A DNA stretch of 64,000 nucleotides from Acidimicrobiales bacterium (GTDB lineage Bacteria; Actinomycetota; Acidimicrobiia; Acidimicrobiales; MedAcidi-G1). How positions within the stretch are numbered: position 1 is the stretch's first letter; each line of letters starts with the position of its first letter. The translations under genes were made by a program, and so were the position numbers. Location: NCBI GenBank assembly GCA_022452035.1, contig JAKURV010000012.1, forward strand, positions 1 to 64,000, written 5' to 3'. The notes under the pieces were generated by a model that saw only the letters and a list, made by a program, of their open reading frames with translations, made no database searches and was not told the DNA's origin. Below are positions 22,519 through 26,031 of this stretch, one piece after another.

Positions 22519-23043
22519 TCAGGCCGCCGTCAGGGCCGACACCAGCGCCTCGACGGCCCCGTCGGCCAGGTCCTGCATCTCCTGGTCGGTCCGGTCCTGG
22601 ATGGGGTGCGCCGTGAACACACGGGCCACATCCAACCCGAGTGCCCGGGCCTGTTCCTCGGCGGCTTCGGCAAACGGCTCTGAGGCCACCACCACACCTG
22701 GTAGGCCACGGCGTTCCAGGTCGTCGATGTCGTGCACACTGCACGTCGTGCAGGATCCTCAATCGGCGAGAGCTTCGATGACCGCCGCACACTGGGTGGC
22801 GATCTCGTGGCGCAGGTCGACAGGGGCCGGCTTGGTGAACGTTGGCTTGGCGTAGCGCAGGACGGTGGCGCCCTGCTCGCCCAGGCGCTCGGCCACCCGG
22901 TCCAGGAAGACGTCGCCCCGCGGCTTGCTGATGTCCAGCAGGCCCACCGTCACACCGACCAGGGAGGTGAGGCGGGGGCTGCGGGTTCGATCCGATGGGG
23001 TCGTGCCGGCGGTCGGATCCAGGACGACGGTCGGCTGACTCAC
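22519..23043 (-). CDS. UGSC-family selenoprotein with in-frame UGA
   Basis: The frame from GTG 23043 runs 94 codons to a TGA at 22761-22759 and then continues 79 codons to a true stop. Read as Sec, the join gives ALAD-U-G-S-C-TTCSVHDIDDLER, the hallmark of the UGSC family, and the two halves match the family's layout: GVTVGLLDISKPRGDVFLDRVAERL and FTKPAPVDLR before the motif, then GLPGVVVASEPFAEAAEEQARALG and FTAHPIQDRTDQEM after it. Total 174 residues. The family has unknown function; relatives with Cys at this site are known. Its GTG overlaps the upstream gene's TGA by 4 bases. A hairpin 19 nt after the UGA is a good SECIS candidate. Confidence 0.9.
22731..22745 (-). promoter_or_regulatory. 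Candidate SECIS hairpin of the UGSC gene
   Basis: CGTGCA pairs perfectly with TGCACG around a GTG loop whose first base is 20 nt after the UGA. The loop sequence is identical to that of the SelW-like gene's hairpin. A competing CTGCAC/GTGCAG fold is closer to the UGA (11 nt) and less suitable. Confidence 0.65.
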
Positions 23044-24491
23044 GGTGTGATCTCCCTACTTGTCGGCTCGCTGCCCATCGGGCCGTTCACCCAGCCTCCC
23101 ACAATGGCCGAGAACAAGCCGGCTGGACCACCGGCATGGACGACCAGCAGGCCGCCCGGGCGAAACTTGGGGAGAGTCGTACCGGCAAACCCCTCGGGGA
23201 GCCCTTCCTCGATCCCGCCCGCTCCGGCCAGGATTTCGTCGGCTTCGACTGTCAGGTGGCCGGCCAACTCGGACATGAACCGGTTCCGGTCCCAACCGGC
23301 GTCCCGGAACCGGGACATGTGTTCCGGGGAGAGCACCAGCATCCCGTCCATGCCCATCACCACCCGGGGCGAGACGGTTGCTCGCAGGCCCTCGGCCAGC
23401 GCCCGGACCAGAGAATCGGCCGACCGACTCTTCTGGTCGACCAGGATCCGGGGTGCCTCGCCGCAGAAGGCCGTCACCACGTCCTGGGACCGGTCAAAGC
23501 CACGATCCTCGGACAAGGTGGTCCACGGACTGCCCGCCTCGTCCTCGGCGAAGCAGAACCCCAACTTGGCCATACTGCCGTGGGTGGCCCGGTCGATGCC
23601 GCCGGGCGCCCCGCCGCCGACGTTGCGGACCACCAACTGAACGGCCCGCCCGATGGTGGCGTTGGCACGGTTCCCCTGGCCGAGGGCATTCACGCCGCTG
23701 TTCATCCCGATTCGCGATGACACCGGGCCGTTGACCACCAGGACGGGCCCAACGCCCATCGTGGTGGCCAGGATTCCGTGCATGTTGAACTCGTCGGTAC
23801 AGACGGCCTCCAGGGCGGCTAGCACCACAGGGAGGTACTCGGGCAGGCAGCCGGCCATCACGGCGTTCACGGCCACCTTCTCCACCGTGCACTCCACGAG
23901 GGCAGGGGGCATGACCGCTACCACCTCGTCGGCCGCCCGAGTCGTTCCGTCCAGCATCCGGGCCACCCGGGCTTCGGTCGGAGGAACAACGGGTAGCCCG
24001 TCGGTCCACCCCCGGTCAAAGAGGGCCTCGGCGTCGTCCTCGCCGGATCCCAGTTCAACTCGACGAGAGGCTAGGCCCGTGTCGTTGAACCGGAGCCGGA
24101 GTTCGTCGATCCGCCCGGGATCGACCGTCAGGGACCCTCAGCCGGGCTTGAAGGCCGGCAGGTCAGGCCCAAGATCGACCACCCCCGTCAGCTGCTCCCA
24201 CCGGTCTCGGTCCCATCCCGTTGTTCGCTCGACCTCCCGGCCAGCCTCGATTCGCAGCAGGGTGGGCACGGCCTCCAGATCCAGATGCCAACTGATGGCC
24301 AGGTCGGTGTCGTCCACGACCCAGTCGGCCACCGCTGGGAAGGTCGCGTCGTCCTGGGTGTAGGCAGTCAACCCGGCTCGTTCGGACAGATCGGCCAGCA
24401 CCGGCGCGACTAGCGCGCAAGCCGGGCATTCTGCCTTAACGACGGCCACTAGGCCGTCTGACAGGCCGGCGGACCCGACATCTGCAACCAC
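23040..24491 (-). CDS. Thioredoxin-like / UGSC-associated fusion selenoprotein with in-frame UGA
   Basis: Two open segments, a 117-codon thioredoxin-like part (GTG 24491) and a long downstream part, lie in one frame separated only by TGA at 24140-24138. Read through, they give a 483-residue protein with Sec118 in FKPG-U-GSLTVDP, where I recall Cys in homologues. The N-terminal domain has CPAC near residue 23 and a cis-Pro loop (AVPTLLRIE). The C-terminal domain has RGWTDGLPVVPPTEARV, CTVEKVAVNAVMAGCLPEYLPVV, MNSGVNALGQGNRANATIGRA and a final GGLLVVHAGGPAGLFSAIVGGWV. Its last codons overlap the UGSC gene. A hairpin 20 nt past the UGA supports Sec. Function unknown; a thiol/selenol redox enzyme is inferred. 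Confidence 0.82.
24105..24125 (-). promoter_or_regulatory. Candidate SECIS hairpin of the thioredoxin-like fusion gene
   Basis: GTCGATCC pairs perfectly with GGATCGAC around a CGGGC loop. The loop starts 21 nt after the UGA and has G at its second position, as expected for a bacterial SECIS. Confidence 0.65.
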
Positions 24492-24560: not shown

Positions 24561-24575
24561 AGATGTGTCACATCT
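24561..24575. promoter_or_regulatory. 15-bp palindrome between divergent selenoprotein operon and metallo-hydrolase gene
   Basis: AGATGTGTCACATCT is a perfect inverted repeat of AGATGTG around a central T. It lies 70 bp before the thioredoxin-like selenoprotein start and 41 bp before the metallo-hydrolase start, well placed as a shared operator. The TGTG/CACA core recalls Crp- or GntR-type sites; the regulator is unknown. Confidence 0.6.
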
Positions 24576-24615
24576 GCCCCACCGGGCCCTGACCCGTCCG
24601 TACCCTTCACGATCG

Positions 24616-25491
24616 ATGGGGGAGTCGCTCGACGTCACGTTCTACGGCGTTCGGGGATCGACCCCCTGCCCGTGCGACGAGAACCGCCGCTACGGAGGCA
24701 ACACCTCCTGCGTGGTCCTCGACGTGCCCGGCGGGGAGCCGATCCTGTTCGACCTGGGGACCGGCCTGCGCTTTTACGGTGTGGCTGAGCCATGTGCCGG
24801 TGCGCCGTTTCGCGGAACAGCCCTAGTTAGTCACCTCCACTGGGACCACGTCCAGGGCCTGCCGTTCTTCGCCCCCCTCCACTGTGACGGCGCCCACCTC
24901 GACGTGTTCGGTCCCGCCGAGGGAGGGTCCTCGCTGGAGGCGTCGTTCGAAGCCTTCATGAACCCTCCCTACTTCCCGATCTGCATTCGGGACCTGGCGG
25001 GTGAGATCGCTTTCCACGACGTGGACGAGGTCTCCTTCGAGATCGGCCCGGCCAGGGTGACGGCCCGTTCGGTGCCCCACGTCGGTTTGACCTACGGCTA
25101 CCGGGTGGACTGGAACGGCACCAGTGTCGCCTACGTGAGCGACCACCAGCAGCCCGTCGACGAACCCCAACGGGTGGCCGATCCAGTGCTGGAGTTAGCC
25201 GACGGGGTGGACCTCCTCATCCACGACGCCCAGTTCACCCCCGAGGAGTTCGCCGAGCGATCCGACTGGGGTCACTGCACCGTTGACTACGCCCTGGAAG
25301 TAGCCCACCAGGCTGCAGCCAGAGAGCTGGTGCTGTTCCATCACGACCCGGCTCACGACGACGACACCGTCGACCGCCTCCTGGCCGGAGCCCAGGAGCG
25401 GTGCAGCCACCTGGACGTAGTGGACGTCTCGGCGGCCGCCGAGGGTCACACCATCTCGCTGCACCGGCCGGGGCACCTGTCCACCGTCTGA
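24616..25491 (+). CDS. Metallo-beta-lactamase-fold hydrolase (PhnP-like)
   Basis: A 291-residue two-metal hydrolase. It begins DVTFYGVRGSTPCPCDENRRYGGNTSCVVLD, typical of the branch with phosphoribosyl cyclic phosphodiesterases, followed by the metal motif SHLHWDHVQGLPFF near residue 75, then VPHVGLTYGYRV, an Asp in IHDAQFTPEE, His in WGHCTVDYA and His in LFHHDPAHDD. Likely a phosphodiesterase, substrate unknown. The ATG at 24616 starts the first strand. It is divergent from the selenoprotein operon across the palindrome at 24561. Confidence 0.85.
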   Translation: MGESLDVTFYGVRGSTPCPCDENRRYGGNTSCVVLDVPGGEPILFDLGTGLRFYGVAEPCAGAPFRGTALVSHLHWDHVQGLPFFAPLHCDGAHLDVFGPAEGGSSLEASFEAFMNPPYFPICIRDLAGEIAFHDVDEVSFEIGPARVTARSVPHVGLTYGYRVDWNGTSVAYVSDHQQPVDEPQRVADPVLELADGVDLLIHDAQFTPEEFAERSDWGHCTVDYALEVAHQAAARELVLFHHDPAHDDDTVDRLLAGAQERCSHLDVVDVSAAAEGHTISLHRPGHLSTV

Positions 25492-25542: not shown

Positions 25543-26031
25543 GTGGGATCGGAGATCGACGGCGACCTTTACCGAAAGGTCCTGGGGCGTTACCCCACCG
25601 GGGTGACCCTGGTTACCGGGATGGACGGCGACGAGCCCTTGGCCATGGTTATCGGCTCCTTCGTATCGGTATCCATGGACCCGCCCCTGGTCGGGTTCCT
25701 ACCCGGCAAGAGCTCTCACACGTGGCCACGGATCGAGATCAGCGGGTCGTTCTGCGTCAACGTGCTATCCGACACCCAGGAGAACCTCTCCAACGCCTTC
25801 TTCCGCAAGGACGGGGACCCGTGGGAGGAAACGGGCTGGGTGCCCGCAGCTTCTGGGTCTCCAGCCATCCCGTCATGTCTGGCCTCCATCGACTGCGCGA
25901 TTCACGACGTGGTCGACGCCGGCGACCACTGGTTCGTTCTGGGCCGGGTTACCGACCTCAGCCACGTCGACGAAGGTTCACCGCTCGTGTTCCTCGGTGG
26001 CCGGTACGGCGGGTACCGGCCCCCCGTCTAA
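25543..26031 (+). CDS. Flavin reductase-like FMN-binding protein
   Basis: A 162-residue split-barrel flavoprotein. It has the family opening YRKVLGRYPTGVTLVTGMDGDEPLAMVIGSFVSVSMDPPLVGFLPGKSSHTW, then GSFCVNVLSDTQENLSNAFF and a C-terminal HWFVLGRVTDLSHVDEGSPLVFLGGRYG. Such proteins reduce flavin with NAD(P)H and often feed an oxygenase; no partner oxygenase is adjacent. It starts at GTG, and its TAA overlaps the ATG of the gamma carbonic anhydrase-like gene (TAATG). Confidence 0.88.
   Translation: MGSEIDGDLYRKVLGRYPTGVTLVTGMDGDEPLAMVIGSFVSVSMDPPLVGFLPGKSSHTWPRIEISGSFCVNVLSDTQENLSNAFFRKDGDPWEETGWVPAASGSPAIPSCLASIDCAIHDVVDAGDHWFVLGRVTDLSHVDEGSPLVFLGGRYGGYRPPV

Follow-up and report, generated by a model that had tools for sequence, protein, structure and literature searches.

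A thioredoxin fusion protein with a very probable selenocysteine, encoded beside the UGSC selenoprotein in Acidimicrobiales

In the DNA analysed here (64,000 nt of an Acidimicrobiales bacterium, contig JAKURV010000012.1, hereafter the window), a thioredoxin-fold domain and a large C-terminal domain share one reading frame across a single in-frame TGA, and comparison with homologues indicates that this codon is almost certainly read as selenocysteine (Sec) in place of a universally conserved Cys, although there is no evidence at the protein level. As comparison across genomes shows, the fusion gene forms a conserved pair with a gene of the UGSC selenoprotein family, and the two are mostly closely linked and co-directional. 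The fusion with Sec at residue 118 is likely a new selenoprotein within a known but uncharacterised system, of which UGSC is already known and the large domain probably so (Unknown_1, 2008). A 2026 inventory of 119 selenoprotein families lists UGSC alone, and no architecture made up of thioredoxin, PG-U-GS and the partner domain; likewise, none of the NCBIfam selenoprotein models matched the fusion protein when 67 homologues were searched. Since no Pfam or NCBIfam model covers most of its length, annotation pipelines can be expected to break it up, giving a short thioredoxin plus a truncated protein. This locus provides the long-orphan UGSC selenoprotein with a partner that is now defined, a likely source of electrons and a distant relative whose chemistry is known, so that its function can be tested directly.

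The interrupted frame and the residue at codon 118

The fusion gene (23040-24491) lies on the minus strand and runs from a GTG start at 24491 to a TGA stop at 23042-23040, giving a single frame of 483 residues whose sole internal stop is the TGA at 24140-24138, that is, codon 118 in the context LPAFKPG-U-GSLTVDPGR. A first-pass annotation, made from the sequence alone, had proposed one frame with a lone TGA at this place, a thioredoxin-fold segment with CPAC and a 4-bp overlap with the UGSC gene. All three claims held: the CPAC motif occupies residues 22-25 (24417-24428), and the overlap is the GTGA shared by the fusion-gene stop and the UGSC-gene start (23040-23043). The annotation gave no strand, and its count of 366 codons downstream of the TGA was off by one (365). 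Read through the TGA, the protein aligns with proteins in 46 of the 48 genomes of the source organism's family, of which 45 have it at full or nearly full length. Full-length homologues that align with it at 47-94% identity come from at least five phyla, so this is no chance open frame.

In 103 of 103 distinct stop-free full-length homologues codon 118 is TGC or TGT (RPG-C-GS), and nothing else. These homologues come from Acidimicrobiia, Geodermatophilaceae, Acidobacteria, Myxococcota, Gemmatimonadota and alpha-, beta- and gammaproteobacteria. The first-pass annotation had placed a Cys in homologues at the PG-U-GS join and had named it as the test of its Sec reading; the test was run, Cys was found without exception, and the Sec reading is supported, by comparison only. 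Within the family, 41 of the 45 full-length genomes carry exactly one internal stop, a TGA, which falls at codon 118 in every TGA gene whose DNA was read, and the four genomes without a stop carry Cys instead (KPG-C-GS) and are nested inside the family. On a tree of 144 rows built with column 118 masked, two changes suffice, i.e. a Cys-to-Sec change on the family stem (SH-aLRT 99) and a Sec-to-Cys reversion in the clade of four (100), itself nested with Sec sisters (99). Sec118 is thus a lineage-specific replacement of Cys within one actinobacterial family, which means that the wider system needs Sec only in UGSC.

A bacterial SECIS-like hairpin with an 8-bp stem and a G-containing apical loop (CGGGC) is present just downstream of UGA-118 (24105-24125, minus strand). 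The TGA loci number 43, including duplicates, because some loci of the two genome collections are the same contigs, and 34 distinct sequences from the TGA to +48 were taken for structure. In these 34 Sec genes the hairpin starts 15 nt after the T of the TGA, and its loop reads CGGGC, or CGGTC in two of them. Pair cells are standard in 96.0% of cases, whereas the figure is 53.9% in the 103 Cys genes, and slid versions of the hairpin used as a control were at most 49% paired; one pair swaps UA for CG in 14 sequences. The residues PGR, encoded by the loop and stem, are invariant in the Sec genes and variable in the Cys genes. In the four Cys revertants the hairpin has been lost, with only three or four of the eight pairs left, while their Sec sisters (L043 and L044) retain 8/8. 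The folding energy of the single hairpin, a GC-rich sequence, was no better than that of shuffles (z 0.16, not significant), and minimum-free-energy folding was consequently dropped as proof of a SECIS, so that the case for the hairpin stands on the comparison between Sec and Cys genes. The family also offers a clean natural history from Cys to Sec and back to Cys, in which a SECIS hairpin was gained and then lost.

The gene pair with UGSC and the selenium machinery

The downstream gene (22519-23043, minus strand, GTG start at 23043) encodes a 174-residue member of the UGSC family, with its own Sec codon at residue 95 (TGA, 22759-22761, in the context ALAD-U-GSC and opening the motif U-G-S-C-T-T-C) and its own SECIS-like hairpin (22729-22747), for which 93% of cells are paired in 111 distinct sequences across phyla. 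A UGSC gene adjoins the thioredoxin (Trx)-fused gene in 138 of the 141 loci with room for one, in at least five phyla; 133 of them follow it immediately downstream (median gap 4 nt), and five are divergent. Three of the 141 have no UGSC within about 6 kb. Every UGSC gene adjoining a Trx fusion has a recoded stop, either TGA or, in five Geodermatophilaceae, TAG. A UAG-reading tRNA-Sec and a UAG-coded UGSC were already known from this family (PMC5330540). The TAG loci found here, in five Blastococcus and Geodermatophilus genomes (L085, L087, L098, L102 and L109), agree with that published tRNA-Sec, and the adjoining fusion protein carries Cys118.

SelA, SelB and SelD of the source genome all score over their cut-offs, and a tRNA-Sec with a TCA anticodon (UCA in RNA) was detected at 67.5 bits. 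SelA was found in 80 of the 82 genomes with the fusion versus 121 of the 214 without it (Fisher p 4e-14; class sample), and several fusion loci, among them those of Rhodoferax, Aquabacterium and Rubrivivax, also encode SelB. The co-occurrence of the two genes across genomes, which the first-pass annotation had put forward as a check, therefore holds for UGSC and extends to SelA. Its proposal of a two-protein selenium-dependent system is likewise supported, with the restriction on Sec118 given above. The SelD gene of the source genome (L177, G000:C16:39537-40460) itself contains one in-frame TGA and is likely to encode a selenoprotein. On Paracoccus plasmids, selB lies a few kilobases from a UGSC/partner-domain module (L054:12350-14122 and L184:11436-13208), and the L054 annotation had split the UGSC of that module into two short ORFs.

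Besides the pair itself, no neighbouring gene is conserved across phyla and no substrate gene is consistently adjacent, and the neighbourhood was for this reason dropped as a guide to the substrate. Divergent from the pair in the window lie an MBL-fold-like hydrolase gene (24565-25491, plus strand) and a flavin-reductase-like gene (25543-26031, plus strand). Both are kept in about a dozen Acidimicrobiia and in no other phylum, and plain synteny is the likely explanation.

The component domains and their relatives

The N-terminal domain (residues ~12-102; 24186-24458) is matched by PDB thioredoxin structures, in agreement with the AF2 model and Foldseek. TIGR01068 matches 56 of the 67 homologues (best 1.5e-5), but the window protein scores only 15.8 bits, below the 96.8-bit equivalog cut-off. 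The domain resembles thioredoxin (PF00085/TIGR01068) in its fold, in its redox CxxC (C22 and C25, both Cys present in 67/67 aligned homologues) and in an invariant Pro76 within VPT. It differs in being fused to a large domain and in the extra Cys/Sec motif (RPG-C/U-GS) past the fold. Residue 118 is placed just beyond the thioredoxin fold, after the last helix, where the model is confident (block pLDDT 94). One related genus (L215-L217; family f36, genus g83) lacks both the thioredoxin domain and the RPGCGS motif but retains the remainder of the protein (63-65% identity), together with a UGSC interrupted in frame by a stop. Since Cys/Sec118 shows 100% conservation and comes and goes with the thioredoxin domain, the two may work together, and we infer that residue 118 belongs to a thioredoxin input module. 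The VPGUxxT thioredoxin-like selenoprotein (NF041383) also has a PGU motif, but the Sec of the fusion protein follows the thioredoxin fold and reads U-G-S-L-T, and NF041383 gave no match in the 67 homologues at E up to 1. An identity with VPGUxxT or another catalogued selenoprotein was ruled out, there being no NCBIfam match.

The large partner domain (residues ~150-483; 23043-24044), which starts with GWTDGLPVVPPT, has no Pfam, NCBIfam or PDB match and no known fold, Foldseek included. It contains two conserved Cys: Cys215 (MAGC-P-E; 23847-23849), found in 66 of the 67 Trx-fused proteins and in 17/17 sequences of a broad alignment, and Cys313 (GFC-F-AE; 23553-23555), found in 66/67 and in more than 90%, respectively. 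A fumarase-like fold was not accepted (Foldseek E 0.008, TM ~0.2), and a Gly_reductase (GrdE-type) identity was ruled out for want of a Pfam match, the domain matching no glycine-reductase subunit searched (Gly_reductase, GRDA). The first-pass annotation had called this part a UGSC-associated domain; its distribution is broad, covering Archaea and Bacteria, and it is often a stand-alone protein. Stand-alone copies have UGSC as a neighbour in haloarchaea, Paracoccus, Roseovarius, Variovorax and Arthrobacter. In Variovorax boronicumulans a single ORF encodes the two as a fusion, and a longer single ORF in Sporomusa resembles the Variovorax fusion. Genes near the stand-alone modules encode CoA transferases, SDRs, lyases and TRAP or tripartite-tricarboxylate transporters, possibly pointing to small-organic-acid catabolism. 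The source genome also carries a second, paralogous module (L048:3741-5374; G000:C9), in which a stand-alone partner domain is followed by a TGA-coded UGSC with the motif U-G-S-C-T-S-W and, just downstream, an SDR gene.

A fusion of UGSC to a conserved domain with a conserved Cys, named Unknown_1, was depicted in 2008 (PMC2398784, Figure S1A) and called limited to a few aquatic organisms. The Variovorax protein, in which UGSC is fused to a partner domain with a conserved Cys, resembles that arrangement, whereas the partner domain is widespread in the present survey. We consider it likely that Unknown_1 is the C-terminal partner domain, although this has not been proven by sequence; the text of PMC2398784 mentions no thioredoxin-Sec fusion.

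The UGSC gene product is a clear member of its family (NF041046, 7e-45 and 152.6 bits, over the 125-bit cut-off, motif U95-G-S-C98; PF24696, 3e-41; Zhang and Gladyshev 2008), a family catalogued alone but tied at the present locus to a second selenoprotein. Its UxxCxxC centre is nearly invariant, residue 95 and C98 being kept in 54/54 members and C101 in 53/54. The 2008 description assumed a thioredoxin-like fold (PMC2398784); this was rejected on a confident model (pLDDT 93), a flavodoxin/Rossmann-like fold of five strands in which Sec95 opens a helix. Weak matches to the glycine-reductase selenoprotein B model TIGR01917 were obtained for 44 of the 54 members (best 3.4e-6), spanning the Sec motif and up to ~70 residues beyond it (in the L125 UGSC, residues 71-164 align to 330-421 of the model), and 46/54 weakly match sarcosine GrdF, aligned at the Sec motif. 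The TIGR01917 scores (13.5 bits for the window UGSC, 20.9 for L125) are far below the 602-bit cut-off, and Pfam GRDB matched none of the UGSC members searched. UxxCxxC is the motif of GrdB through which GrdA is thought to act (PMC13188914). UGSC is like GrdB (TIGR01917, TIGR01918) and D-proline reductase PrdB in this centre, in the remote match over the Sec motif and C-terminal region, and in the thioredoxin system that adjoins some of its modules, but it is unlike them in falling far under the family cut-off and in having hosts, haloarchaea and proteobacteria among them, beyond the anaerobes known for glycine reductase. PF04723 and PF09338, for the partners GrdA and GrdE, had no match in the source genome or in any control genome. 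Elsewhere the source genome has a frame of 193 residues that scores 30.5 bits, over the PF07355 (GRDB) cut-off, and represents a GrdB-like protein distinct from UGSC (L218, G000:C26:5697-6020).

A putative electron path and its alternatives

We lean, by a modest margin, towards the reading that the locus encodes a two-selenoprotein, thioredoxin-driven, GrdB-like reductase module; the order of electron transfer and the substrate are inferred, with no protein-level evidence. Electrons from NADPH would reach the CxxC (C22/C25) in the N-terminal domain by way of a cellular thioredoxin reductase, move from there to the thiol or selenol at residue 118, and continue to the UxxCxxC centre of UGSC (Sec95/C98/C101). 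UGSC, as a remote relative of glycine/proline-reductase selenoprotein B, would perform the chemistry, and the large C-terminal domain, with its conserved C215 and C313, may bind a small metabolite substrate and dock UGSC. In modules without the thioredoxin domain, stand-alone TrxA/TrxB could take its place. In Arthrobacter, where the partner domain is stand-alone, the gene order is trxB-trxA-domain-UGSC, and TrxB-like genes were found in 7 of 15 stand-alone plasmid loci versus 0 of 80 Trx-fused loci, in samples that differ in taxa; no trxB neighbour was seen in the short (4-kb) stand-alone actinobacterial loci. With trxB/trxA beside stand-alone modules and TrxB-like genes absent from fused loci, the fused thioredoxin domain looks like a built-in input. 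Taken with the likeness of UGSC to GrdB, its UxxCxxC motif and its model, this pattern makes transfer from the thioredoxin CxxC through Sec/Cys118 to Sec95 the best reading. The thioredoxin input proposed in the first-pass annotation is thus supported as an inference, by the invariant C22/C25 and the trxB-trxA neighbours, and its statement that no substrate is known remains true.

A bolder version, on which we remain more doubtful than convinced, sees in the module a compact equivalent of glycine/proline reductase in hosts other than the classical anaerobes. Here the thioredoxin domain and Sec118 would replace the separate thioredoxin and carrier steps, UGSC would be a GrdB-type selenol catalyst, and the widespread GWTDGLP domain would be a new substrate-binding partner. 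If true, this would establish a family of enzymes for selenium- or thiol-dependent reductive cleavage, with members across Actinobacteria, Proteobacteria, Acidobacteria, Myxococcota, Gemmatimonadota and haloarchaea.

Among the alternatives, the one that survives best, and is possible, places Sec118 off the electron path, as an auxiliary or regulatory selenol acting, e.g. as a selenenylsulfide switch or in protection against over-oxidation. In its favour, the residue is dispensable as Sec, being Cys in most homologues with one reversion, and it is not part of the thioredoxin CxxC but of the segment past the last helix; its strict conservation as Cys or Sec, and its joint presence or absence with the thioredoxin domain, speak against it.

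A role of the pair as a thiol/selenol peroxidase or in detoxification, with UGSC reducing peroxides or organic hydroperoxides, is unlikely. Many Sec/Trx systems are peroxidases, and the thioredoxin-like fold assumed for UGSC in 2008 would fit, but the model has a flavodoxin/Rossmann-like parallel sheet instead, the family likeness is to GrdB/GrdF, and the stand-alone relatives occur in the catabolic setting described above. Slightly less likely still is a large domain acting as the catalyst, e.g. a hydratase/lyase-like enzyme, with UGSC and thioredoxin keeping its Cys reduced or regulated. Its two conserved Cys, the weak Foldseek likeness to class I fumarate hydratases and the aconitase X neighbours in Sporomusa and Vibrio could be cited for this, but the Foldseek match is not significant, and the invariant U-G-S-C centre sits on UGSC and is retained even without the thioredoxin domain.

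Finally, that UGA-118 is a plain stop between a 117-residue thioredoxin and a separate downstream protein is all but excluded, even though table-11 gene callers terminate the ORF there, an internal GTG start is available at 23966 and the large domain is frequently a separate protein in other taxa, since no homologue was found that terminates at codon 118 as a separate protein, the outcome named in the first-pass annotation as a refutation, since Sec-type genomes keep the reading frame, the KPG-x-GS around the codon and the hairpin across the TGA, and since the 103 distinct in-frame homologues with Cys at exactly this codon rule out an ordinary stop.
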